Below are positions 10,251 to 39,702 of a stretch of DNA of 40,549 nucleotides, one piece after another; positions within the stretch are counted from its first letter, which is position 1; each line of letters begins with the position of its first letter. The notes under the pieces were generated by a model. That model was not told the origin of the DNA. It worked only from the letters and a program-made list of their open reading frames with translations, and made no database searches. Where the stretch lies: NCBI RefSeq assembly GCF_007858435.1, contig NZ_VIGW01000019.1:1-40549 (forward strand). Direction: 5' to 3'. The position numbers were made by a program, and so were the translations under genes. The stretch comes from Tsukamurella asaccharolytica. GTDB taxonomy: Bacteria; Actinomycetota; Actinomycetes; Mycobacteriales; Mycobacteriaceae.

Positions 10251-10327
10251 GCCCCCGTAGCCCAATTGGCAGAGGCAACGGATTCAAAACCCGTCCAGTG
10301 TGAGTTCGAGTCTCACCGGGGGCACCA
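10251..10327 (+). tRNA. tRNA-Leu(CAA), integration target of the element
   Basis: The cloverleaf can be drawn by hand: acceptor GCCCCCG/CGGGGGC, D-arm GCC/GGC, anticodon stem ACGGA/CCCGT (four pairs plus an A-C), loop TTCAAAA with anticodon CAA, T-arm GTGAG/CTCAC with TTCGAGT, discriminator A and encoded CCA. The variable loop is only five bases (CCAGT), not the long arm usual for leucine tRNAs. The last 44 bases also encode, on the other strand, the end of the serine recombinase, marking this gene as the attachment site. A terminator follows. Confidence 0.93.
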
Positions 10328-11960
10328 GAACGGTCTTATTCAAACTTTCACCGCAAGGTGGAAGTTTTTCGTTGTCCGACCTTAGTAAATCGTCGACGGT
10401 CACAAGCGGCTGACCTGGCTCTTGGCGTTCCACCTCCACAGTGCTCACGATGTCCGAGAAGCCTCCGAACGGCTCGCGGAGCGTTGGTTCTGCTCGGTCC
10501 TCGTGGACCTCGATTCGGGTGAAGAAGGCCTGGTTGTACAGGCGGCGGTGCTGATCCGTTGCGGCGAGGTAGCCGGCGTGGCAGTTGCTCGCGTATCGAA
10601 GGGCGACTTCCAGGTTGGCTTCGACGGTGCTGATCTCAGTGTCCGTGGCGGCGAGCCTGGTATCGATCTCGGCCAGCTGGCGCGCGATGCGATCCTGCTC
10701 GCTCTTGAGGAGGTCGAGGGGCACGGCATCGGCGTAATGCGCACGGAGGAGCTGCGTGCGTTCGGTGAGCAGACGATCGCGCTGGATGGTCAGGTCGCGG
10801 CGCTCCACATCGGCAGCGAACCGGGTGCTGCTCAGCTCCGTGGTCAGCAACTCACGAATGGAAGCTTGCTGCGCGGTGGTGAGTTGCAATCCGCGGTACG
10901 CATCCTCGACCAGCTCCTCAACCGTGGCGACATGGAGCGCCTTCTGTTGGCAGGCTGTCCGCTTCTGCTGACGCCCTATGCAGATGTAATACGGATAGAT
11001 GCGTCCTTGGCCGTTCTTGGCCATGGTCACGATGAGGCGGGAGCCGCACGTGCCGCAGAAGACGGTGGACTTCAGGTAGTGGGGGTGCTCACGGCTCCGT
11101 TCGCCGACCTTGTGGCTCTCGAGGACTTCCTGGACACGTTGCCAGGTGTCGGCGTCGATGAGCGGCACGTGTCGGCCAGGGTGCGCTGCTCCGCGGTAGG
11201 TGACGGTGCCCTTGTAGTACGGCGTCTTGAGGATCTTGGCCAGCGAGTTCGCCCGGATCGGGGCGCCGGGGCGCTTCCGGGTACCCCGTGACGTCAGGCC
11301 GCGTGCCTCCAGCGCGTCGGTGAGCTGACGAATCGTCCACTCGCCGGTCGCGTACTGCTGGAACGCCCACGTGATGAGAGGGGCGCGGTCGGGATCGAGT
11401 TCGACGGTGCGAACTTCGCGACCTTCGCTGTTGATCGTGCCGACGTTGCGGTAGCCCAGCGGAGCCAGTCCAGGGGTACCGCCCGTCTTGGCCTTCTGCT
11501 CCATCCCCTTGATGACTTCGGTCGCGAGGTTGCGCGAGTAGAACTCCGCGATCGAGCTCATGATGCCGTGCAGCAGCATGCCCGAGGCAGTCTCGTCGAT
11601 GTTCTCTGTAGCTGACACGAGCTGCGCGCCAGCATTCTGGATCGCCAGGTTGATCGCCACGTCGTCGGCGCGGTTGCGAGCGAGGCGATCTACCTTGTGC
11701 ACGATGACGTAGTCGACCGGGTGCGCAGCGATGTATCGCAGCATCTCTTGGAGCTTCGGACGGTCGGCCGACTTCGCTGACTCGCCACGCTCCGGGAACT
11801 CGGCGACGATCTGCGCGCCGATCATGGCGGCCTTGCGTTCGTTGGCAGCGCGCTGCGCGGGGAGCGAGTAGCCCTCTGGGTCACCGTCACGCTCGGCCTG
11901 TTCCTTGGTGGATACACGAATGTACGAGACGGCGAGCGCCGATTCGCGGGTGGTTGTCAT
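10284..11960 (-). CDS. Large serine recombinase (site-specific integrase)
   Basis: 558 residues from ATG at 11960, with GGAGG six bases ahead; an in-frame ATG at 11972 overlaps that Shine-Dalgarno and is not used. The catalytic domain has YIRVSTKEQ (nucleophile Ser17), VHKVDRLARNRADD and the helix ending NLATEVIKGMEQKAKTGG. The recombinase domain is around 165-270. A zinc ribbon CGTCG...YPYYICIGRQQKRTAC and a long coiled coil (RDLTIQRDRLL...ISTVEANLEVALRY) follow. The last ~14 residues (PPVRLELTLDGF region) and the stop are read from the antisense of tRNA-Leu, so the gene's 3' end was formed by integration. It presumably integrates and excises the element with a directionality factor. Confidence 0.93.
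   Translation of the reverse strand: MTTTRESALAVSYIRVSTKEQAERDGDPEGYSLPAQRAANERKAAMIGAQIVAEFPERGESAKSADRPKLQEMLRYIAAHPVDYVIVHKVDRLARNRADDVAINLAIQNAGAQLVSATENIDETASGMLLHGIMSSIAEFYSRNLATEVIKGMEQKAKTGGTPGLAPLGYRNVGTINSEGREVRTVELDPDRAPLITWAFQQYATGEWTIRQLTDALEARGLTSRGTRKRPGAPIRANSLAKILKTPYYKGTVTYRGAAHPGRHVPLIDADTWQRVQEVLESHKVGERSREHPHYLKSTVFCGTCGSRLIVTMAKNGQGRIYPYYICIGRQQKRTACQQKALHVATVEELVEDAYRGLQLTTAQQASIRELLTTELSSTRFAADVERRDLTIQRDRLLTERTQLLRAHYADAVPLDLLKSEQDRIARQLAEIDTRLAATDTEISTVEANLEVALRYASNCHAGYLAATDQHRRLYNQAFFTRIEVHEDRAEPTLREPFGGFSDIVSTVEVERQEPGQPLVTVDDLLRSDNEKLPPCGESLNKTVLVPPVRLELTLDGF
10343..10369 (+). terminator. Rho-independent terminator after tRNA-Leu
   Basis: AACTTTCACC-GCAA-GGTGGAAGTT forms a 10-pair stem with one T-G wobble and a GCAA tetraloop, followed by TTT. 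It lies 15 bases after the tRNA and inside the antisense 3' part of the serine recombinase gene. Confidence 0.8.
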
Positions 11961-11998
11961 GTTGACCTCCAAATCGTAGGGACGGATGGATCAGGGGA

Positions 11999-13480
11999 TC
12001 AAAGCCACGGGCGCGAGCGGGGCGTCAGCACTCGCCGGAGGCTGTGCCATTCGCCGAGAGATGCTTCGTACGTCGTGAACGAGAATTGTTGACAGCAATC
12101 TTTGACAGCAACAGAGCCGACTATGTGCATGGTTGTCCGTGCGCGTAGTTGGTTGATAGCAGAGGTGAGCGCGGGGTCGAAGGTGAGCTGAGTCGAGCTC
12201 TTAAGCAGGGTGTCCCGGGTTCGATCCCCGGATGGCCCTCCAAGATGATTCCACCCCTGTTGGGTGGCTTTTTCTTGCCCCAGTATTGTTGTGAAAGATA
12301 CGTCAGATTCTGCGGTTGACAGCAGTTTTTGACAGCTACGTGTGCTGTCAAACTCACGCGTCAGCAGTCGTTTGCCGACGTTGCTGAGGGCGCGGCGCTG
12401 GATTTCGCTGTCGCCGTGCTGGTAGATCTGCTGGGTCGTCGAGATGTGGGCGTGCCCCAAGATCAGCTGGATGTCGCGATCCGGTACGCCGAGGTTCTTG
12501 AGCAGCGTGGCGGTCGAGTGCCGTAGGTCGTGTAGGCGAATCCGACGCAGCCCGGCTCCGCTCGCGATCTTATGGAACATCCGCGCGAAGTTGCGCGGCC
12601 AGAGGGGCATATCGTTGTCGCTCAGGAAGACGAGGTCGCGCATGTCGGCAGGAGCATCGTCAGCGGCCGGCTGCTTGCGTGCCTCGTGAGCGTTGAGCGC
12701 AGCGCGCACGGCAGGAATGAGCGGAAGGCTCCTCCTTCCGGCACGCGTCTTGACGGGGCCAACGTGGAGCTGGCCTCGTACCTGCTGGAGTTGCTGCCGT
12801 ATGTGCAGCTGACTCTTGTCCCAGTCGATGTCCTGCCACCGGAGGCCGAGTGCCTCACCGCGACGCATGCCGTACACCGCGAGCAGCAGAAACGTGGGGT
12901 ACTGCCGGTGCTGCGCGGCCGCGTTGAGGAAGCGATTGACCTCTTCGATCGACCACGGGGTGATTTCCTTGCGCTCGTCGGTCGCGAGTTCGACGATCCG
13001 GGCGACGTTGCGGGTCAGGACTTCTTCCCGCACAGCGCGGGTCAATGCGGCGCTCAGTACGGTGCGTGCCACGCCGACGACGCGGAGAGACTTTCCCTCC
13101 TCCAGTTGCTGGTTCAAGGAGCGCTGCAACATGCTGACGGTCAGTCGCTTGAGCGGCACATTCCCGATGTATGGCTTGAGGTGCAGTCGAATCGACGACT
13201 CGTAGAGCTCCATCGTGCGGGGTCGATGGTCACGAGGAGCCACGTCCGTCATCCAGTAGTCGAGGTAGTCACCAACCGTCCAGGGGCGGTCCGCAACAGG
13301 TATGAAGTTGGCTGCCTGCGCGAGCAATTCGAGCAGCTTGTCGTGCGCCTCCTTCCTGCTCTTGCCGTACACATGGATGCGCTTGCGGTTACCGCTGGCG
13401 GTGAGCATGTAGGCAGCACCGACGAACCGGCCATCCTGCCGCTGGTAGATCGACCCCTCGTTGAGGTGACGGCGGCTCAT
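11999..13480 (-). CDS. Tyrosine recombinase (second integrase)
   Basis: 493 residues. An arm-binding N-terminal domain (MSRRHLNEGSIYQRQDGRF...) and a SAM-like core-binding domain (WTVGDYLDYWMTDV) precede the catalytic domain: Arg206 (YGMRRGEALGLRW), Lys244 (GPVKTRAGRR), His317-x-x-Arg320 (LHDLRHS), His343 (LGHAHIS) and Tyr353 (QQIYQH). All catalytic residues are intact. The enzyme proper ends near residue 375. The remaining ~118 residues are a read-through of the attachment region, including the antisense of a tRNA 3' half (GGPSGDRTRDTLLKSS). It overlaps the xis stop by four bases. Confidence 0.93.
   Translation of the reverse strand: MSRRHLNEGSIYQRQDGRFVGAAYMLTASGNRKRIHVYGKSRKEAHDKLLELLAQAANFIPVADRPWTVGDYLDYWMTDVAPRDHRPRTMELYESSIRLHLKPYIGNVPLKRLTVSMLQRSLNQQLEEGKSLRVVGVARTVLSAALTRAVREEVLTRNVARIVELATDERKEITPWSIEEVNRFLNAAAQHRQYPTFLLLAVYGMRRGEALGLRWQDIDWDKSQLHIRQQLQQVRGQLHVGPVKTRAGRRSLPLIPAVRAALNAHEARKQPAADDAPADMRDLVFLSDNDMPLWPRNFARMFHKIASGAGLRRIRLHDLRHSTATLLKNLGVPDRDIQLILGHAHISTTQQIYQHGDSEIQRRALSNVGKRLLTREFDSTRSCQKLLSTAESDVSFTTILGQEKATQQGWNHLGGPSGDRTRDTLLKSSTQLTFDPALTSAINQLRARTTMHIVGSVAVKDCCQQFSFTTYEASLGEWHSLRRVLTPRSRPWL
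12198..12242 (+). pseudogene. tRNA 3' half (att core), Lys(CTT) or Thr type
   Basis: The stretch begins at a loop CTCTTAA and holds the 3' anticodon strand GCAGG, variable GTGTC, T-arm CCGGG-TTCGATC-CCCGG, acceptor strand ATGGCCC, then T and CCA. The 5' half is absent: the bases left of the loop do not pair with GCAGG. The loop would read CTT (Lys), but T before CCA is more usual for tRNA-Thr, so the parent tRNA is uncertain. It would restore a host tRNA gene cut at the anticodon loop when the tyrosine integrase acts. Confidence 0.8.
12251..12276 (+). terminator. Terminator carried behind the tRNA 3' half
   Basis: CCACCC-CTGTT-GGGTGG followed by CTTTTTCTT, nine bases after the tRNA CCA. It would terminate a restored tRNA transcript after integration. 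It lies antisense to the tyrosine integrase tail. Confidence 0.8.
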
Positions 13481-13803
13481 TGCACGCCTCCGGTCGTTGC
13501 GAGTGACCCGACAAATCGCTCAATCTCGGTGGCCGGTACGAGGCGACGGCGTCCGATCGTGATGGTGGCGATCTGCTGACGGTTGATGAGCTGGTACAGG
13601 CTCCATCGGCTGATACGAAGATGCTCGCTCGCCTCTGTCATGGTCAGGAGAGGTCCGTTCGCTGGAACCTCCGGCGTGCCTGGCGCCCTGCTACTCAGCC
13701 GCTGATCCAACCACTCGCGATCGAGAAGCTGGCCGTCCGCGAGACGGATGGCCGCGTCGCCCAAAGCTCGCAACTGCTGCTGGGTGTCGCTGAGCGTGAC
13801 CAT
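13477..13803 (-). CDS. Excisionase-type helix-turn-helix protein
   Basis: 108 residues from ATG at 13803, with AAGGAGG six bases ahead; longer in-frame starts upstream would overlap the ImmA gene needlessly. The C-terminal half (LLTMTEASEHLRISRWSLYQLINRQQIATITIGRRRLVPATEIERFV) is a MerR/Xis-like winged helix (HTH_17 type). This is the usual recombination directionality factor placed just upstream of a tyrosine integrase. Its stop overlaps the int start. The N-terminal ~55 residues are helical and unassigned. Confidence 0.85.
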   Translation of the reverse strand: MVTLSDTQQQLRALGDAAIRLADGQLLDREWLDQRLSSRAPGTPEVPANGPLLTMTEASEHLRISRWSLYQLINRQQIATITIGRRRLVPATEIERFVGSLATTGGVQ

Positions 13804-14450
13804 CAGAATCCTCCTTGTAGTGCGGGTGTTCGCGCGTAGTCGAAGCGGCTGCGCGCTGTTGGACGGCAACTGCGGGCTACTTGGGTGTCGGTCGGCATGA
13901 CCAGCCCGGTCTGTCGCAGTCGTACCCGAATCGCCTGCTCGCTGACGTTAAAGGCGCGCGCCAGGTCGTCCTGGCGCTGGATGCCGTTGCCCCAGGCGCG
14001 TTTCAGAAGGCGTCGGGGTACGAGGAGGCAGCCAGCGAAGTAGTCGCCTGCTTGTTCGGCGTGGCGGTCGGCCAGGGTGCCATGGTAGAGCCGCTCGCGG
14101 TTCGGGTGGTCGATGATGTGCTTGTACTCGTGGGCGAGCGTGAAGCGTTGGCGGCGCCAGGAGTCGGCGCGGTTGAGTAGGATGATCCACTGCTTCGATC
14201 GCCAGTCCCAGAAGTTGGCGCCGTCGGCGGCATTGCTGCTGGGCAGGATGCGGATCTTCGGCAGTTCCGAGATGATCTCCCGGGGCACCGGCCAGGTGGT
14301 GATGCCGTGCAGGCGCAGCAGCGTGTTGGCCTGGAGTTCGGCGACACGGAGGGCGTCGCTGAAGGAAATGTCGTCGCGAGTCGGGCTGAGCGAGCGAAGG
14401 GTGGCCAGGACGCTCTTCTCGATGGTGCTTGTGTTCGTGGTGTCGTTCAT
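13803..14450 (-). CDS. ImmA/IrrE-family metallo-endopeptidase
   Basis: 215 residues from ATG at 14450. Zinc motif HEYKH at 107-111 (TLAHEYKHIIDH) and a downstream Glu in RHAEQAGDYFAGCLLVPRRLL match the ImmA family. A short helix-turn-helix-like part (DDLARAFNVSEQAIRVRLRQTG) follows. In ICEBs1-like elements ImmA cleaves an XRE repressor after DNA damage or cell signals and so releases excision and transfer genes. Here the XRE gene lies just upstream on the same strand. Its stop overlaps the xis start, suggesting one transcript for repressor control and excision. Confidence 0.9.
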   Translation of the reverse strand: MNDTTNTSTIEKSVLATLRSLSPTRDDISFSDALRVAELQANTLLRLHGITTWPVPREIISELPKIRILPSSNAADGANFWDWRSKQWIILLNRADSWRRQRFTLAHEYKHIIDHPNRERLYHGTLADRHAEQAGDYFAGCLLVPRRLLKRAWGNGIQRQDDLARAFNVSEQAIRVRLRQTGLVMPTDTQVARSCRPTARSRFDYARTPALQGGF

Positions 14451-14515: not shown

Positions 14516-14908
14516 CTATTCGTCTTCTCCCGTGCGTGGTCCGTCGGTGTCGCGGTTGAACTGGATGCCGTACTTGCGCCCGATTTCGTTGAATTCGGCG
14601 TCGATGGCGGCGGCGGCTTCGGCGGTCAGGTTGTACTTGGTGCGCATGTACGGGCGCAGGGTGGGCATGTCCCTCGGCGACAGCCAGCCAGCGGCGACGA
14701 ACAGGTCGCTGGCGGGCATGTCGAGCGCCCCGGCGATGGCGGTCAGACGCTCCGGACTCGGGGCGGTGACCTCGCCCGATTCGATCCGGCGGTAGCTGCT
14801 GTGAGCCATGCCGGTCAGGGATGCCAACCGGGGGATGGACATGCCGATCTGCTTTCGGCGGGTGCGTAAGGTGGTAGGTAAATCGTCGTTGATCGCCATG
14901 GTCGGCAT
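14516..14908 (-). CDS. XRE-family repressor
   Basis: 130 residues from ATG at 14908; ATG at 14899 is an alternative, since AAAAGGAG ends only two bases before 14908 but eleven before 14899. The HTH_3 domain is TLRTRRKQIGMSIPRLASLTGMAHSSYRRIESGEVTAPSPERLTAIAGALDMPASDLF. The C-terminal ~50 residues may be the region recognised by the ImmA peptidase encoded next. It is likely the element's maintenance repressor. The AT-rich upstream DNA (14915-15000) would hold its promoter, and palindromic sites lie at 15045-15058 and 15087-15098. Confidence 0.88.
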   Translation of the reverse strand: MPTMAINDDLPTTLRTRRKQIGMSIPRLASLTGMAHSSYRRIESGEVTAPSPERLTAIAGALDMPASDLFVAAGWLSPRDMPTLRPYMRTKYNLTAEAAAAIDAEFNEIGRKYGIQFNRDTDGPRTGEDE

Positions 14909-15161: not shown

Positions 15162-15488
15162 CTACCCGGTGGAATCGTCTGCCTTGGAGGCAGCGGCTCC
15201 ACGGCGGGGACGGGACTTGCTGACGGGCGGTTCGGTGCCGAACATCTGCGAGATGGCTTCCCGCTTGAGTGCGGCTTCCCGTTCGACTTCCTGGCGAGCA
15301 GCTTCGGCTCGTTCCAGGAGGTCGGGATCGGTGCGTGCCTCCTCGATGTGCGCGACGATGGCGTGGATGCCTTCGTCGTTGATCGTGTGCTCACGCAGCT
15401 GGGCGATGAACGCCAACTGTGCGTGCACGTCGGGCGCGAGCCGGATGGCCAGCGTCTTGAGTCCCGTCTCAGGGGTGGGTGTGGACAT
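15162..15488 (-). CDS. Ribbon-helix-helix-like small regulator
   Basis: 108 residues from ATG at 15488, with GAGGAGG ahead. KTLAIRLAPDVHAQLAFIAQLREHTINDEGIHAIVAHIEEA (residues ~11-51) fits an RHH fold: a short beta strand with alternating residues, then two helices, as in Arc/MetJ/ParG-like proteins. The basic tail SKSRPRRGAAASK could contact DNA. In conjugative elements such proteins often act at oriT or as autoregulators. An inverted repeat CTGACAC-N5-GTGTCAG at 15519-15537, just before its start, may be its site or a terminator for the gene upstream. Confidence 0.75.
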   Translation of the reverse strand: MSTPTPETGLKTLAIRLAPDVHAQLAFIAQLREHTINDEGIHAIVAHIEEARTDPDLLERAEAARQEVEREAALKREAISQMFGTEPPVSKSRPRRGAAASKADDSTG

Positions 15489-15577: not shown

Positions 15578-16189
15578 CTATGCGGCGACACGGTGCTGCT
15601 CGTCCTGGTGAGTCGTGCGGGGTGGCGACGGTGGATCACTCGGCACGGGGTAGCCCGGAATGACCACCTGCGCCTCTACCTCATTCCCCCAGCGGTGCCA
15701 GCCTGGTTGCGGCCGGCGGGCGAACAGCTCCAAGTACGGGCCCGGGCTGATCCGCTCGATGATCGCGTACTGCTCCTCCGGTTTGTGGCTGTGCGCCTGG
15801 AGCGGTGCGAACATCCAGGTCGGTTGTGCTTTGAAGCGAACCGGAGCATGCCCGCGGGTACCCAGCAGCATGTGCTCGGTGGCGTTGCGCAGGTAGTTGC
15901 CCAGGCCGAGCCGTGGTTTCACCCAGGTCATGGTGGAGCGCGGCGTGAATCCCCAGGCGTCGAGGACGTCGTAGCCGTCGCGTAAGGACGCGTTCGTCAC
16001 CCACAGCCAGCAGTGCGCGTCGTCGGCGGCGAGGTCGGCGACCGGCATGGCCTTGATGCGGTCCAAGGTCATGAGCGAGTAGTGGTTGCTGGCACCGTGG
16101 CCGCCGACTTGGTGGTGCAGCCAGGGCGGGTCCGCCAGGATGGTGCCGAACCGCGTCGGCACGGTGCTCGTGGTGGTGCTCATGGTCAT
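15578..16189 (-). CDS. MT-A70-family adenine methyltransferase
   Basis: 203 residues from ATG at 16189 (MTMSTTTS; a second ATG two codons on). The catalytic motif DPPW is at 20-23 (FGTILADPPWLHHQ), with ASNHYSLMTLDRIKAMPV, a second half HCWLWVTNASLRDGYDVLDAWGF and a late NATEHMLLGTRG. These are hallmarks of the MT-A70/Ime4/ParB-associated N6-adenine methyltransferases found in phages and integrative elements. It could protect element DNA from restriction, or act in its replication control. It overlaps the replication-relaxation stop by four bases. Confidence 0.9.
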   Translation of the reverse strand: MTMSTTTSTVPTRFGTILADPPWLHHQVGGHGASNHYSLMTLDRIKAMPVADLAADDAHCWLWVTNASLRDGYDVLDAWGFTPRSTMTWVKPRLGLGNYLRNATEHMLLGTRGHAPVRFKAQPTWMFAPLQAHSHKPEEQYAIIERISPGPYLELFARRPQPGWHRWGNEVEAQVVIPGYPVPSDPPSPPRTTHQDEQHRVAA

Positions 16190-17238
16190 AGGGCGTCTCC
16201 TTCCTGCCCTGCTTCTGCGCAGAGCGTTGTGGTGAGTGATTCAGGGGTCGTGATGCGGAACATGCGGGCGTCGAGGCGGGGATCCTTGGCGATGCCGTCG
16301 GCCAGCTGCTGGCGCCTGCGTTGGGCGATTTCCGGGGTGCGGGCGCTCATCTGCCAGATGACCAGCGGCATGCCGCCATCGCGTTCGGCGTGGCCGCTGC
16401 GGGCGTAGTCGGCGTAGGTGCGGCACTTGCGCAGCAGCGTGGGGAGGTGTTCGCTGCCGAGATCGACCTCGATGAAGACGCTCAACAGATCGTCGCCCCC
16501 GGGCGGGATGGCCAGCTCGGCGTAGAGGTCCGGTTTGAGCGGCTGGACGACGCCGGCCGGGGTCAGGAAACGGCGCCAGGCATGCGGTTCGGTCACCAGC
16601 GTCACCAGGTCGAGCTGCCCTGCCCGGGCGGCGTCGACCACGCGGACGTGGACGTCCCCGATCGCCAGGGTGTGCGTGAGGAAGCTGGTGCTCGGTCCGT
16701 GTGACCGGTACCGGCGGCGGGTATCCGGATGCAGCAGTCGGTGGCCGCGGTCGGTCAGGAACCACACCATGCCGCTGCTGCCTGCCCGCATGCCGCCGAT
16801 GCGACGCTCCAGCCGATCGATCAGCCGGTGCCGCTTGAGCCAACGGGTGACGCGACCGGCCGCCACGGGAGCGGAATCGGGTGTGTGCCGTTCAGCGAAG
16901 TACAGCCGCGTCAGTTGCGGCGTGCTCAGGAAACGGTGCTGCTCGATGAGCTCCAGCGTGTTCCAGCCGGGTGCGCCGAGTTCGCCGCGTAGTGCCTCGA
17001 GGTCGAGTCGACGCCGTGTCTGGCGGGCGGGTGTGCTGCGCGGCTGCGCAGCATCAGTCCCCTCCAGAGGTGGAACGGATGTGGCGTTGAGCTGGCCGGA
17101 TGGGCTGGGATGAGGTGCTGCGATCGGAACAGCGATCGGAACAGGTGAATCTGCTGGTTCGACGTCGTTCGTCAGTCGTCTGCCACTCGTCAATGCCTCG
17201 ATTCGGCCGCTGGTGATGAGGTGGATCGGGCCGCTCAT
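16186..17238 (-). CDS. Replication-relaxation family protein
   Basis: 350 residues from ATG at 17238. The N-terminal ~85 residues are Pro/Ala-rich and variable. Then comes a winged-helix-like part (WNTLELIEQHRFLSTPQLTRLYFAERH...GRVTRWLKRHRLIDRLERRIGGMRAGSSGMVWFLTDRGHRLL), then a nuclease-like segment LKPDLYAELAI...LLSVFIEVDLGSEHLPTLLRKCRTYADY. The spacing of D, E-x-D and K resembles a PD-(D/E)xK-type core. This pairing is typical of the Replic_Relax family in actinobacterial plasmids and ICEs, proposed to act in plasmid replication or DNA processing. It overlaps neighbours on both sides by four bases. Confidence 0.85.
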   Translation of the reverse strand: MSGPIHLITSGRIEALTSGRRLTNDVEPADSPVPIAVPIAAPHPSPSGQLNATSVPPLEGTDAAQPRSTPARQTRRRLDLEALRGELGAPGWNTLELIEQHRFLSTPQLTRLYFAERHTPDSAPVAAGRVTRWLKRHRLIDRLERRIGGMRAGSSGMVWFLTDRGHRLLHPDTRRRYRSHGPSTSFLTHTLAIGDVHVRVVDAARAGQLDLVTLVTEPHAWRRFLTPAGVVQPLKPDLYAELAIPPGGDDLLSVFIEVDLGSEHLPTLLRKCRTYADYARSGHAERDGGMPLVIWQMSARTPEIAQRRRQQLADGIAKDPRLDARMFRITTPESLTTTLCAEAGQEGDAL

Positions 17239-19439
17239 TGCCGCCTCGCCTTCCGTCCGTAGCTGACGGGCTGGTCGGTGTCAGCGGCGGGAGGATCGAC
17301 CAGTGCCATGAAGGCGGCTTCGACGGTGTCGAGGGGGTGGCCGTAGCGTTCCCGGGACGATCGACGAACGGCGTCGGGATCGCTCGTTTTAGCGGGCGGC
17401 GGCGCGGTGGATGCTGACACCCACGGTTGCGCGGTGTTGTCCCGAACCAGCTGGGCGTAGACGGCATAGGCCGGCAGGCTCATGAAATCTTCGGGCGCGA
17501 GGGTGGATTGCCCAGCGGTCATCAGGCGGGCATCGGGTGCCGACAGCTGGAAGCAGATCCGGCTGCGGGCGTTGGCCGCCACGGCGTCGTGCATCGGTTT
17601 GGGGAGCTGGGCCCCGTATTGGTGCGCCAGGGTGAAGCCCGCACGCAGGGATCGGGCGGTGGCGAGCGCGTCGGCCAGGTTGGTCGGCAGGCGCAGGAAG
17701 TCCTGCACCTCGTCGATGTACACCTGCACCGGCGTGCGGCTGTCCTCAGGGATGGCCACGCGTTCGCGGATGGCCTGCCAGAGTTCGGCCAGCACCGCAG
17801 CGGCGAGCAGCTGCGCAGCGGAGTGCCCGAGGACGCCGACTTGGAGCGGCACCAGCAGGATCTTGTTCTCGGTCAGCACTTGGCGGACGTTGAAGCGCGG
17901 TGCGGTTTGGCCGAGGACAGCCCGCAGCGTCGGGGTGAGCAAGGGCCGCAGCTTGTTGCTCAGCGGCGCCGTCACGGTGCTGGCGGCTTCCGGCGACAAG
18001 GCGTCGAACCAGGCCCAGAAACTGCCCGCACCGATGGGATCGCGCTTGACGGCTACCTGCGTAATCGAGCGTCGGAAGCCGGGATTGCTCAGCAGCAGCG
18101 GCAGCATCACCAAGGAGGCGTCGTCGCGGAGGGCCAGGGCACCGAGGCAGTAGCGCAGGATATCGCTGGAGCGTGGTCCCAGGCTGTCGCCGTACAGCGC
18201 CTCGAACAATCCGAAGGTGGTGTCAGCGACAAGGTCGGGGGAGCGGCGATCACCCAGTGTGCGTGCCAGCGGGTTGATCCCTACTGGTGCCTCGTCGAGC
18301 GGGTCCAGCAGTACGACGTCGTCGATGCGGCTGTTCGGAATACGGGCGAGAACGTCGCGCACCAGATCCTTGGGTTCGATGACGACGACCGGCCGGCCAG
18401 CGGCGATGTCCTGCACGATGAGGTTGAGCAGCAGGGTGCTCTTGCCGGTGCCATTCGGGCCCAGCGCCCAGGTGTGGCGCATGCTGTCGATGACGCTGTA
18501 GCCGACCGGGGTTCCGGTGCCCGGCGCTGAGGCCATGCCGATGATCCGCTCGCCCGTCGCGTACGCCGCGCTCGGGCGCAGCGGCTTGGGGTGCTTCGGC
18601 GGTTGGCCGGGCAGCGGGTCGTCGCGCTCGGTGATTGGCCAGGCACTCAGGTAGCTGACTTCGGCCACGTTGAGCAGCTGGCTGGCCGTGAACAGTGACC
18701 AGTTGGCGCGCGGCGCATTCACCCGATGAGGCTGCTCCGAAGCGAGCCGGAGGCTGCTGCTGGCGGCTTCGACGGTGCTGACCGCCGACGCCAATCCCAG
18801 CAGCAGGCTTTTGCGGCGTTCCTCGGTGGGAGCGTCCACCGCCAGCCGGACGACGGCGCGGAACCCGTGCTCGCCGAGCTTGCGAATGAGCGCCTGACGA
18901 GCGTCGGGTCGTTCCGATTCCACACCGCGGAGCAGCCGTCCGGCGACAGACTGACCACTGCGGGCCGGACGAACCGGCGGCAGCGTCGGGCGACGGCGCG
19001 GACCAAGCACCAGTTGCACGGTCAGGGATTCACTGGGGCGGAGGCCGGTCATGGCCGAAAGCACCGACCGCACCGACTGCTCGCGGTCAACCGGCGCCAA
19101 GGGGCGGGTACGGCTGGTGAGCACCAGGCGGCGCGCCACCCGAGCCGGTTGCCGATCCTCGGGAGTGAAGGGGACCACCAGCGCGCCGGGGATCAGGGAT
19201 TCGATCTGGCGCTTGAGCTGCCCGGCATGCCGGAGCTGGCTGCCCACCAAGTACTCCACCCCGCTGCGGTCAGCACGGGCTTCGAGCAGGATTTGCGGCG
19301 CATGGCGCTGCGCTGCCCAGTGGCGCACCAGCCCGAGGGCGGCCGTCTCACCGAGGGGCTGCGGGAAAAACAGCAGCTGCCACACCAGCGATCCCGGACG
19401 CAGCGACGGTGATGCCGGGGGAGCGGTGTTATTAGTCAT
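17235..19439 (-). CDS. Conjugative coupling ATPase (VirD4/TraG-like)
   Basis: 734 residues from ATG at 19439, with GGAGG ahead; the frame is open further up, but that part belongs to the small gene upstream. The N-terminal ~290 residues are a membrane-proximal or accessory domain (LVWQLLFFPQPLGETAALGLVRHW) without long membrane helices. The ATPase domain has Walker A GPNGTGKST at 327-335, VVVIEPKDLV, Walker B VQVYIDEVQDFL at 571-582 and a following sensor-like motif LAHQYGAQLP. It would feed DNA into the transfer channel. It stands without recognisable VirB4/VirB6 partners in this window. Confidence 0.9.
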   Translation of the reverse strand: MTNNTAPPASPSLRPGSLVWQLLFFPQPLGETAALGLVRHWAAQRHAPQILLEARADRSGVEYLVGSQLRHAGQLKRQIESLIPGALVVPFTPEDRQPARVARRLVLTSRTRPLAPVDREQSVRSVLSAMTGLRPSESLTVQLVLGPRRRPTLPPVRPARSGQSVAGRLLRGVESERPDARQALIRKLGEHGFRAVVRLAVDAPTEERRKSLLLGLASAVSTVEAASSSLRLASEQPHRVNAPRANWSLFTASQLLNVAEVSYLSAWPITERDDPLPGQPPKHPKPLRPSAAYATGERIIGMASAPGTGTPVGYSVIDSMRHTWALGPNGTGKSTLLLNLIVQDIAAGRPVVVIEPKDLVRDVLARIPNSRIDDVVLLDPLDEAPVGINPLARTLGDRRSPDLVADTTFGLFEALYGDSLGPRSSDILRYCLGALALRDDASLVMLPLLLSNPGFRRSITQVAVKRDPIGAGSFWAWFDALSPEAASTVTAPLSNKLRPLLTPTLRAVLGQTAPRFNVRQVLTENKILLVPLQVGVLGHSAAQLLAAAVLAELWQAIRERVAIPEDSRTPVQVYIDEVQDFLRLPTNLADALATARSLRAGFTLAHQYGAQLPKPMHDAVAANARSRICFQLSAPDARLMTAGQSTLAPEDFMSLPAYAVYAQLVRDNTAQPWVSASTAPPPAKTSDPDAVRRSSRERYGHPLDTVEAAFMALVDPPAADTDQPVSYGRKARRQ

Positions 19440-19668
19440 GACGCACCTCCTCCCTGCCCTCGTGGACAGCGGCTGGCGGTACGCGATCGCTGGCTGCGTC
19501 AGCGTCGGCGTTGGCTTCGGCCAGCGCCTGCGCGATGATCGCCCGGGCCAGCTTGCGCAGATCCGGCGGTTCGCGCCGGACACTGCGGACCGTGATGTGG
19601 CGCGGCTGCCGGGTTTTCGGAATACCCCGTTCTCCCCGCCGCTGATTGATTCTTCCTGTCTTTGACAT
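19432..19668 (-). CDS. Small basic protein upstream of coupling ATPase
   Basis: 78 residues from ATG at 19668, with GGAGG eight bases ahead. It is strongly basic at the N-terminus (RINQRRGERGIPKTRQPRHITVRSVRREPP), followed by an amphipathic helix (DLRKLARAIIAQALAEANADADA). Its stop overlaps the start of the ATPase gene, so the two are translationally coupled. The family is not recognised. By size and charge it could be a DNA-binding accessory of transfer, which is inference. Confidence 0.7.
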   Translation of the reverse strand: MSKTGRINQRRGERGIPKTRQPRHITVRSVRREPPDLRKLARAIIAQALAEANADADAASDRVPPAAVHEGREEVRHD

Positions 19669-32831: not shown

Positions 32832-33893
32832 ATGACCGGATCTACCGAGAAGTTGCCACTGTCACCGATGCTGGTGCAGTACCTCGTGGGACTGTGTGCG
32901 TTGAGGTGGGACGCTGAGGCGGTTGACGTGTCTGTCACTCTGGGCGGGATGGTCCAAGACGTGGCATCAGAGACGACTCGCGACGTGGACGTCACGGTCA
33001 CAGCTTCGGACCCAGATGGCGGTGTCCACGCTTTCAAAGGATACGAAGTCAAGCACTGGAAGAACAAGCTTGATGTTGCCGATGTTGAGGCATTAGTAGC
33101 CAAGTTTAACGATATGCCGTCAGTGACACACCGTGCGATCGTCACCACTTCGGGATACACGGAACCGGCGATCCGGAAGGCCGCACATCACGGGGTTGAT
33201 CTGTATGTGATCGCAGACTGGGTCAAACCGCTGGAGGAGCAGTTCCCTGAGCTGGCTCCGATGGGCGGAAAGCCCGAGGAGGCGATTCGTGGCATGCACT
33301 TCTTTCTGAATTGGAAGGACTGGTCGGTGTGGCTCGGTATGGAGGGGAACGTTCCCAACTTTACGATCGACGCGAACGCGCCCATATTTGACGAGACGGG
33401 GCGGCCGCTTGATTTCGCGCCGACGTACTCGGCGCTGGTTAAGAAGGCGCTGATGCGCTCAGTCGACCTGCTGGTCAACCTGGATCCGATCGTGGCACCA
33501 ATGAATGCCGCGATAGAAACACACTCACCACCGTCAACGATTCCTGACTTGGGAGAGCGGCCACACTCGCACACGTTGGATGCCGGAACCCTGGGAGCGC
33601 ATATCGTCGTGGATGGGAAGCCGTACAAAATCGATACGATCACCCTTTCGGGAAGTCTCGTGTGGGACCGACAGGAGATGAAATACTGTGTCATGGAACG
33701 CGTACCCGACGGCGACGCGTTCGCGGGCGCAGTGATCAGCATTGGGCAGCGCGAGGGGCAGATGACTGCTCTCCTATTTTCTCCGAAGGATCGAAATATC
33801 GAGCATCGTCCCATTCAGCTTCTGCCGGATCAGTTGAATAGCATCCGGAACCTCGAAATTGCTGCGGCCGGCGGCCCGGCTGGTCCAAAGTAA
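32832..33893 (+). CDS. Mrr-like PD-(D/E)xK endonuclease with extra C-terminal domain
   Basis: 353 residues from ATG at 32832. The N-terminal half is a restriction-endonuclease-like core: TTRDVDVTVTASDPDGGVHAFKGYEVKHWKNKLDVADVEAL (Asp51/Asp53, Glu72-x-Lys74). HRAIVTTSGYTEPAIRKAAHHGVDLYVI follows, the usual last strand and helix of Mrr_cat proteins. The C-terminal ~210 residues are a separate beta-rich part (HFFLNWKDWSVWLGMEGNVPNFTI ... LGAHIVVDGKPYKIDTITLSGSLVW) of unknown role, perhaps target sensing. It is probably a modification-dependent or effector nuclease. Preceded by the nucleotidyltransferase-like gene. Confidence 0.75.
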   Translation: MTGSTEKLPLSPMLVQYLVGLCALRWDAEAVDVSVTLGGMVQDVASETTRDVDVTVTASDPDGGVHAFKGYEVKHWKNKLDVADVEALVAKFNDMPSVTHRAIVTTSGYTEPAIRKAAHHGVDLYVIADWVKPLEEQFPELAPMGGKPEEAIRGMHFFLNWKDWSVWLGMEGNVPNFTIDANAPIFDETGRPLDFAPTYSALVKKALMRSVDLLVNLDPIVAPMNAAIETHSPPSTIPDLGERPHSHTLDAGTLGAHIVVDGKPYKIDTITLSGSLVWDRQEMKYCVMERVPDGDAFAGAVISIGQREGQMTALLFSPKDRNIEHRPIQLLPDQLNSIRNLEIAAAGGPAGPK

Positions 33894-38001: not shown

Positions 38002-38070
38002 TCCGGTATCGTTCGCGCCGGGTACTTGGCAGCTGCGGCATCGTCGACCCGCACAAACTGGAGATGGATA

Positions 38071-39702
38071 GTGACCCCGAACCCTGACACCCCGACACTG
38101 CGGAAGGCGCGAGGGGCCTTCTATACCCCTTCGGGCGTGACGAGGCACCTGGCTGACTGGGCTATTCAGAGTGTCACAGACTCGGTTCTCGAGCCGTCTG
38201 CAGGGGAGGCTGCGTTCCTCGTCGCTGCGGTTGAGCGTCTCCACGCCCTTGGCGCAGCTGAGCCTGTTGTTCATGGGGTCGAGCTTCATCAGGCGTCGGC
38301 TAAGGCAGCGCGCGAGGTCGTGGCTGAGGCTGGTGGCACCGCCAGGATCCGCGTCAGCGACTTCTTCCTGACCCAACCCTCCGGCACGTACGCGGCGGTG
38401 ATCGGCAACCCGCCCTTCATCCGCTATCAAGACTTCGCCGGCGAGGCACGCGATCGCGCACGATTCGCGGCGCAGGCGCAGGGTGTCGCGCTCACAGGGC
38501 TTGCTTCGTCCTGGGCTGCTTTCGTCGTACACGCAGCGGCGCACCTTCGGCCTGGAGGTCGGTTAGGTATGGTGCTCCCGGCCGAGCTCCTCTCCACAAA
38601 CTATGCCGCACCGGTTCGGCAATTCCTCTTGGAGCGCTTTAGCTCGGTCGAACTAGTGACATTCGAGACGCAGATTTTCCCTGATGCTGAGGCCGACACT
38701 GTGCTTGTGAAGGCATCTGGATGGTTGGGTGAACCGGCGGGGGTAGCGACGCTCCGGCAGACCCGTGATGCAACGACTCTCGATTCCCTGCACATGGGAA
38801 CAACCTGGTCAACGACCGATCCGACAGCGCGGTGGAGGCCGCTGCTCGTACAGGATGAGACTGTATCGGCCATCAGCAAGGTCATCCCGACGGGCATTTT
38901 CGCCCCGCTCGAGGACCTTGGCGATACGACGCTTGGTATGGTGACGGGAGCAAACAAGTTCTTCACCCTCTCGCCGGAGCGAGTACGCGAACTCGGCATA
39001 CCGCGGCGTGACCTGCTTCGGGTTTCTCCGCCGGGATCGTCTCACCTTAGAGGTCTCGCCCTTACAGATTCAGCGATGACGCAGCTCGGTAAGGAGGGCA
39101 AGGCGACGTGGCTTCTGTACCCGAGCAGGCGCCCCGCACCTGAGACGCTCGCATACATCGACAGCGGCCACACGACCGGCGTCGATACGGCGTACAAGTG
39201 CAAAGTGCGAGATCCATGGTGGCGAGTGCCAGTGCTCCGTGCTGCGGACCTACTGCTCACGTACATGAACGCGGACGCGCCGCGCCTTGTAACAAACCAG
39301 GCGAACGTCCGGCACCTAAACAGTGTGCATGGCGTACACCTCAAGCCGGCGATCCGTGACCTTGCACGGGATGTGCTCCCGGTCGCCAGCCTCAATTCTC
39401 TGACCCTGCTTAGCGGTGAGCTCGTCGGACGGAGCTACGGCGGGGGTGTCCTGAAGCTCGAACCACGAGAGGCTGATCGGTGGTGGATGCCGAGTGCAGC
39501 AACGATGGTGAGTCATCGTGAATCCCTCATCAAGGTGAAGCCCAGAGTTCGGCGGCTCCTCCGGGCCAAGGATCTGCTGGCTGCCGCAGCTGTGGTCGAC
39601 GAGATTGTGCTGGGTGACCTGAGTGACGCGCAGCTCCGTGCCGTGCGCGAGGATCACGCTGCTTTCCTGCAGCGGCGAGTGACGAGGGGCAAGAGTGGCT
39701 GA
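38071..39702 (+). CDS. N6-adenine DNA methyltransferase of a type II R-M system (M.TaqI-like)
   Basis: 543 residues from GTG at 38071, with GGAGAT ahead (GGAGATGGATAGTG). Motifs run in gamma order: X (RGAFYTPSGVTRHLADWAI), I (VLEPSAGEAAFL, 39-50), an acidic HGVELHQ for the second strand, and IV NPPFIRY at 113-119. A target-recognition half follows (from ~residue 270: GIFAPLEDLGDTTLGMVTGANKFFTLS ... YPSRRPAP ... LKPRVRRLLRAKDLLAAAAVV). It methylates adenine in a specific site to protect DNA from the nuclease encoded next. The nuclease start overlaps its stop by eight bases. Confidence 0.9.
   Translation: MTPNPDTPTLRKARGAFYTPSGVTRHLADWAIQSVTDSVLEPSAGEAAFLVAAVERLHALGAAEPVVHGVELHQASAKAAREVVAEAGGTARIRVSDFFLTQPSGTYAAVIGNPPFIRYQDFAGEARDRARFAAQAQGVALTGLASSWAAFVVHAAAHLRPGGRLGMVLPAELLSTNYAAPVRQFLLERFSSVELVTFETQIFPDAEADTVLVKASGWLGEPAGVATLRQTRDATTLDSLHMGTTWSTTDPTARWRPLLVQDETVSAISKVIPTGIFAPLEDLGDTTLGMVTGANKFFTLSPERVRELGIPRRDLLRVSPPGSSHLRGLALTDSAMTQLGKEGKATWLLYPSRRPAPETLAYIDSGHTTGVDTAYKCKVRDPWWRVPVLRAADLLLTYMNADAPRLVTNQANVRHLNSVHGVHLKPAIRDLARDVLPVASLNSLTLLSGELVGRSYGGGVLKLEPREADRWWMPSAATMVSHRESLIKVKPRVRRLLRAKDLLAAAAVVDEIVLGDLSDAQLRAVREDHAAFLQRRVTRGKSG

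Follow-up and report, generated by a model that had tools for sequence, protein, structure and literature searches.

The 40,549-nucleotide contig NZ_VIGW01000019.1 of Tsukamurella asaccharolytica (hereafter the window; it is the whole of contig C10 in a 4.12 Mb genome of 81 contigs) carries an integrative element that begins at a tRNA-Leu(CAA) gene and encodes two recombinases, a large serine recombinase and a tyrosine integrase. We propose that this is probably a two-host element, in which one integrase serves the actinobacterial host and the other serves a Saccharibacterial epibiont. Saccharibacteria are tiny parasitic bacteria that live on other cells, and their known hosts are for the most part actinobacteria. 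The proposal is based on features seen in the sequence, namely the two recombinases, a tyrosine attP that is intact in actinobacteria, a matching tRNA in Saccharibacteria and an integrated state of the same system in Saccharibacteria.

The chromosomal genes on the left of the window stop at tRNA-Leu(CAA) (10251-10327, +; ARAGORN), and the 3' end of the serine recombinase open reading frame (ORF; 10284-11972, -; 562 aa) lies inside this tRNA. The domain set of a large serine integrase is complete in its product, with Pfam matches to Resolvase (1.9e-31), Recombinase (4.1e-12) and Zn_ribbon_recom (8.5e-11). The adjoining tyrosine integrase ORF (11999-13480, -; 493 aa) encodes both a catalytic domain (Phage_integrase, 1.3e-27) and an N-terminal arm-binding SAM-like domain (Phage_int_SAM_3, 3.8e-10), and its 3' part holds a whole attP. 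This attP consists of a left (P) arm pair with two copies of TTGACAGC (12089-12109, +), a core formed by a 45-nt tRNA 3' half that runs from the anticodon loop to CCA (12198-12242, +), and right (P') arms (12316-12351, +) with two further copies (12316-12336) and one inverted copy (12344-12351). Six copies of TTGACAGC are present in the window where 1.11 are expected, a number attained in none of 100 shuffles, and five of the six are those at 12089, 12102, 12316, 12329 (+) and 12344 (-). A first-pass annotation of this DNA had described the serine recombinase gene ending in tRNA-Leu, the complete tyrosine integrase beside it with its tRNA 3' half, and the repeat pairs on both flanks with their inverted copy, all of which stood up to this analysis. 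Because the attP is whole, the tyrosine site was not the one by which the present copy inserted, as that annotation had also held; the position of the serine recombinase and the recurrence of the arrangement make this enzyme the likely inserter at tRNA-Leu(CAA).

A fundamental question is whether the tyrosine module is a mere passenger on this element. To address recurrence, the integrase was searched in 301 genomes of the family (3 at E 1e-70), in 397 genomes of the order (13 at E 1e-80) and in one scan of named genomes, which yielded 17 loci from 15 actinobacterial genomes; the window, Nocardia caishijiensis NBRC 108228 and Streptomyces sp. NRRL F-6131 are among them. From a set of 19 integrase loci (L134-L152), L134-L136 were used, L138-L152 were left out, and L137 served as outgroup only. 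A 35% relative from an uncultured Rubrobacteraceae had no role other than that of outgroup. Every one of the 17 loci has as its core a tRNA 3' half that lacks an adjacent 5' half, and none is in the integrated tyrosine state. Left arms are present at 16, right arms at 16 and both groups at 15. A serine recombinase was counted at 10 of the 17 loci, within 4 kb at nine (G000, G266, G294, G449, G377, G371, G424, G401 and G025) and about 28 kb away at the tenth (G537); those outside the window are 32 to 62% identical to the window enzyme. In seven of the ten a whole host tRNA adjoins the serine gene (Leu(CAA) and Arg(ACG) twice each, Ala(GGC), Ala(CGC) and Pro(GGG)). This count excludes two weak serine recombinase matches, one near G562 (24.8%) and one, the second at that locus, near G371 (24%). 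The suggestion of the first-pass annotation that the tyrosine module is a passenger is not supported: serine recombinase and tyrosine integrase are arranged in this way in several families of the order, and the bare tRNA half at every locus together with the serine recombinase at 10 of 17 argues against a chance passenger.

Which tRNA, then, does the tyrosine integrase address? The anticodon loop CTCTTAA identifies the window core as a half of the tRNA-Lys(CTT) type. The host tRNA-Lys(CTT) has the same loop and is the nearest of the host's own tRNAs, with 10 mismatches over the 45 positions. No second copy of the Lys half was found in the genome, where the other matches are short (E 0.58 or worse), and no site in the present host qualified as a matching attB. 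When the core is joined to the host 5' half, the acceptor stem falls one pair short of its seven and the anticodon stem two short of its five, whereas all pairs form with each of two Saccharibacterial 5' halves; the native host tRNA forms 7/7 acceptor pairs in the fitting frame.

The connection to Saccharibacteria emerged from an integrase relative (L136, in genome G631; 42% identity over 455 aa) on a contig titled Candidatus Saccharibacteria. The first 2 kb of this contig have a GC content of 0.67 and the remainder about 0.48 to 0.52, with a full tRNA-Phe(GAA) at the border; for this reason, a 31-position pattern of the Lys half was tested in actinobacteria and in the Saccharibacterial class. 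In 79 actinobacterial genomes of our choosing (13 known integrase carriers among them, the window's own genome excluded) the exact pattern gave seven matches, all at known attP cores. In the Saccharibacterial class, where up to two mismatches were allowed, 334 of 392 genomes match, and the reversed-pattern control gave none. A search with the first 17 bases, again at up to two mismatches, in 14 element-bearing actinobacterial genomes returned 10 matches, of which nine are attP cores and one lies elsewhere in G362.

Core sequences were searched in the host order, the Saccharibacterial class, phages and plasmids. The cores of the 17 loci are represented by 15 sequences, since G028_C3 and G028_C4b have the core of G362. 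These were compared with 80 distinct Saccharibacterial tRNAs, of which the Lys tRNAs were chosen by the Lys pattern (30 loci among the matches listed) and the Phe and Arg tRNAs otherwise. Twelve of the 15 cores have zero to three mismatches to some Saccharibacterial tRNA in this set. The cores of G294, G424 and G449 equal a Saccharibacterial tRNA-Lys(CTT) at 45 of 45 positions; those of G562 and G371 (loop CTTTTAA) are one mismatch from a tRNA-Lys(TTT), and that of G537 is one mismatch from a tRNA-Arg(TCG). The cores of G362 and G025 lie nearest to tRNA-Phe, with two and three mismatches, respectively.

Moreover, the integrated state is present in Saccharibacteria themselves. Relatives of the integrase were found in 17 of the 392 genomes of the class (E 1e-40), and seven of them form one supported clade (95/83) with the 17 actinobacterial integrases; the tree omits L244, L247, L248 and L249, and arms were scored at the seven loci of the supported clade only. 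At all seven the integrase lies at a tRNA, with no left arm and at least two right arms. A full tRNA is called at five: Lys in G894, Phe in G631 and G747, and Arg in G703 and G795. In G948 and G705 the 5' part of the tRNA is present and the 3' part is altered; an automated test for a 5' half was negative for these two because its anchor is that very 5' part. In G747 the integrase sits at its tRNA 643 kb into the contig. The clearest case is G894, in which the 3' half of tRNA-Lys(CTT) is identical to the attP cores of actinobacterial G294 and G424. Following this tRNA are a P' arm, the integrase, an excisionase, an M78 peptidase, a helix-turn-helix (HTH) protein, Replic_Relax and TraG, in the same order as in the window. 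The GC content per kb is 0.59-0.69 in the element versus 0.47-0.52 across tRNA-Lys, on a contig with an overall value of 0.49. A distantly related serine recombinase (26%) on contig C6 of G894 was considered as the far end of this copy and rejected, since the tRNA separates it from the element. Some 120 bases upstream of the full tRNA-Lys where the element sits, there is a further 5' fragment of a tRNA-Lys (L234:1351-1375), perhaps a trace of another event.

Taken together, these observations suggest the following model. In the actinobacterium, the large serine recombinase would insert the element at a chromosomal tRNA, here tRNA-Leu(CAA), and the tyrosine attP would stay whole. In the Saccharibacterium, the tyrosine integrase would join the attP core to the matching tRNA gene (Lys for the window element; Phe or Arg for its relatives) so that the tRNA is restored, and the serine gene and left arms are predicted to sit at the far end of the element. 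Transfer would take place between partners in contact. Integration by the tyrosine enzyme and excision would, at every passage, replace the core with sequence from the Saccharibacterial tRNA then in use, and this would explain cores that are identical over 45 nt.

An alternative is that the shared integrases record past transfer only, such that the family originated in Saccharibacteria, moved a few times to actinobacteria, and left there an attP that is now vestigial or serves a different purpose, for example the resolution of multimers. The low-GC Saccharibacterial relatives form a supported clade of their own, the integrases of the two phyla differ by more than 40% in the pairs compared, and one actinobacterial core (G028_C4a) looks decayed, all of which would fit this account. 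However, relic sites should decay, yet three actinobacterial cores equal Saccharibacterial tRNAs over their full 45 nt, and both arm groups persist at 15 of 17 loci. The tree also forces at least three changes of phylum on its supported branches (14 of 28 inner branches are unresolved), with actinobacterial G424 paired with Saccharibacterial G894 (99/98) and G028_C4b paired with G747 (100/98). For these reasons we regard past transfer alone as improbable. Near the decayed core in G028, a full tRNA-Lys(CTT) (L157:1184-1260) lies 240 bases from a family integrase; this tRNA may itself be element cargo.

The first-pass annotation had offered another explanation, in which the tyrosine module can direct a second integration at another tRNA and host range is thereby widened; read as a tRNA site in other actinobacteria, this would broaden the range inside one phylum. 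It is common for tyrosine integrases to target tRNA genes, actinobacterial elements with two integrases are known (PMC3218068), and the host tRNA-Lys(CTT) has its loop in common with the core. As regards the target, this claim is not supported: the genome holds no second copy, the exact matches in 79 other actinobacterial genomes lie only inside elements, the window's own tRNAs are at least nine positions away from each of the 15 cores, none of the 17 actinobacterial loci is in the integrated state, and the half matches a Saccharibacterial tRNA-Lys. A target within the actinobacteria is accordingly very unlikely.

Could the target instead be a tRNA gene of a phage or plasmid? Of six IMG/VR contigs with the 17-mer, three have it inside a full tRNA-Lys(CTT) within a tRNA array. 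Those three tRNAs nevertheless differ from four cores at 6 to 13 of 45 positions. Searches of 50,697 phage and 72,556 plasmid records with two cores gave best full-length identities of 80.0% and 84.4% for the window core; for the G294/G424 core the best values were 81.8% over 98% and 77.8% over 100%, respectively. IMG/VR scans with the integrase returned distant relatives, one at 35% and the best at 41% among 80 kept of 323, and no insertion into a phage or plasmid tRNA gene was seen, so we give this explanation only a slim chance. Finally, we give almost no credence to an artefact in which contigs were wrongly joined at a shared 45-nt tRNA sequence to give chimeric Saccharibacterial copies. 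In its favour, the G894 and G631 contigs end 5.2 kb and 2 kb into their GC-rich parts. Chimeras cannot account, however, for Saccharibacterial tRNA halves in actinobacterial genomes, for the same state deep within the G747 contig, or for one-sided arms at all seven loci, low-GC members included.

Several observations weigh against the two-host proposal. The window core itself matches the best Saccharibacterial tRNA-Lys(CTT) among those compared at 42 of 45 positions, with three mismatches, and three of the 15 cores (G401, Streptomyces and G028_C4a) fit none of the 80 tRNAs. The Lys pattern is absent at up to two mismatches from 58 of the 392 Saccharibacterial-class genomes, namely G631 (the genome of L136, in which the exact pattern is also absent) and 57 others. 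ARAGORN calls a tRNA from the core joined to the host 5' half just as it does with the two Saccharibacterial halves (3/3). No serine gene was counted at 7 of the 17 loci, for several of which the stretch covered on that side was no more than about 6 to 13 kb. In G025 and G294 neither a right end nor a repeat of the tRNA end of at least 16 nt was found in 80 kb, and in about 0.58 Mb of G894 that were read, neither the other element end nor a serine gene in the Saccharibacterial copy was found. The nearest integrases of the two phyla are 57.6% identical in the comparison made, and no very recent transfer is therefore seen. Moreover, the Saccharibacterial-class genomes come without completeness values and may be metagenome assemblies.

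The left end of the window element is at tRNA-Leu(CAA); its right end and serine attR were not located before the contig stops at 40,549, and because the window is a whole contig, the right end may lie within it or past it. A 3-oxoacyl-ACP synthase gene that adjoins the site in relatives, and is the expected chromosomal right flank, is on another contig of the same genome (C81:26925-28342), and no 13-mer in common with the tRNA-Leu end or the attP occurs in C81:1-28,400. With the right end not located, neither a full tRNA with the Lys half nor TTGACAGC sites were seen at the far end. Near the start of the same contig, a SIR2 and a HerA gene of the kind that pair in anti-phage defence (C81:2714-5571; L101) may belong to this element. 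The flank leading up to tRNA-Leu(CAA) is 77-95% identical across 15 other searched genomes of the genus, and the DNA past it varies widely between species. In this genus the tRNA is a hotspot of integration: in G001, G004, G005 and G013, partial copies of its 3' end are found 8 to 52 kb downstream of the complete gene, two of them in succession in G005. At 77 nt this tRNA equals tRNA-Leu(TAA) of the same genome in length, while the Leu tRNAs TAG, CAG and GAG have 84 to 87 nt. The serine recombinase has relatives in 24 of 301 family genomes (E 1e-60); their genes frequently terminate at or within tRNA genes of various kinds, and most of these relatives (L104-L109 and others) are not accompanied by a tyrosine integrase of the studied family.

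The integrase ORF continues through the attP, and its relatives align in that tail. Past the tRNA half, differences by codon position in the three closest members are 32/25/40, 11/13/16 and 16/15/14, unlike the catalytic part (96/62/183 and similar). A coding function for the tail was dropped on the basis of this spread over codon positions. Next to the integrase are an excisionase-like HTH protein (13477-13869, -; HTH_17; TIGR01764 excise, 5.1e-07), a relative of which adjoins the integrase in Saccharibacterial G894 and G631, an ImmA/IrrE-type peptidase (M78; 13803-14450, -) with relatives in the same two genomes, and a Cro/CI-type repressor-like protein (14516-14908, -) with a relative in G894. 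A small conserved family protein (15162-15488, -) has relatives in 6 of 10 actinobacterial loci compared and no Saccharibacterial match, and an MT-A70 methyltransferase (15578-16189, -) is present among those 10 loci only in G377; the G894 element has no relative of either gene. Two genes of a transfer type follow, a replication-relaxation protein (16186-17238, -; Replic_Relax, 7.7e-39; relative in G894, E 7e-39) and a TrwB/TraG-like coupling ATPase (17235-19583, -; TrwB_AAD_bind, 8.5e-05; relative in G894, E 1e-48). Beyond these are ORFs that include restriction-type genes, among them an Mrr-type nuclease (32832-33893, +; Mrr_cat, 7.9e-06) and an Eco57I-type DNA methyltransferase (38026-39702, +), both possible cargo. 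No FtsK/TraB-type translocase or replication protein of actinomycete integrative and conjugative elements (AICEs) is present in the 20 window ORFs scanned with Pfam, the remaining ORFs and the missing right part being unscanned, and no mating-pore gene was recognised among the scanned proteins.

How might such an element pass between partners? Ca. Saccharimonadia prefer Actinomycetota hosts, and one lives on Gordonia amarae (PMC13293708). Saccharibacteria have a type IV secretion system related to conjugation systems, with a relaxase missing from most clusters (PMC12102498), and in Southlakia epibionticum this system is essential and needed for epibiotic growth (PMC12857230). An extended version of the proposal, in which the coupling ATPase and relaxation protein of a two-host element of epibiosis dock onto the type IV secretion system of the epibiont and so form a DNA bridge, is doubtful, and the docking itself is speculation. 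Natural competence is also known (PMC12857230) and is another possible way in.

Each part of the element is of a known kind, and the combination is new. AICEs with serine recombinases in tRNA-Leu (PMC3218068) are similar in their serine insertion at Mycobacteriales tRNA-Leu and in being modular integrative elements; the present element differs in its second, tyrosine system with an intact attP, whose core comes from a tRNA of another phylum, and in its transfer genes, a TrwB/TraG-like ATPase and Replic_Relax. The AICE Fcci3390 also has two integrases in one element, but both are tyrosine integrases for one host (PMC3218068), whereas here a serine and a tyrosine enzyme have targets in two phyla. 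Integrative and mobilizable elements (PMC5704250) likewise combine an integration module with relaxation and coupling genes and are comparable in that no mating-pore gene was recognised here; they differ from the present element, which has two host-specific integrases and a mobilization that is only predicted. Phages targeted by CRISPR spacers of both Saccharibacteria and Actinobacteria (PMC10746230) are similar as mobile DNA that meets both partners, but they are known by spacers, while the element described here is integrative and has a separate integration system for each partner. Searches of open-access papers brought to light no integrative element that has a separate integrase for each partner, although papers elsewhere may hold one, and none is reported in the available parts of PMC10462680, PMC12455944 and PMC12424758.

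If the proposal is true, the tRNA half in the attP is a record of the other host that can be read from an actinobacterial genome alone, and it would allow host-epibiont pairs to be proposed from genomes. Genes could then pass between Saccharibacteria and their hosts by a concrete route, and a natural integrase would be available whose attB is common in Saccharibacteria, where genetic tools are scarce. The border between two phyla would then be crossed not by one broad integrase, but by an element that carries one for each side.

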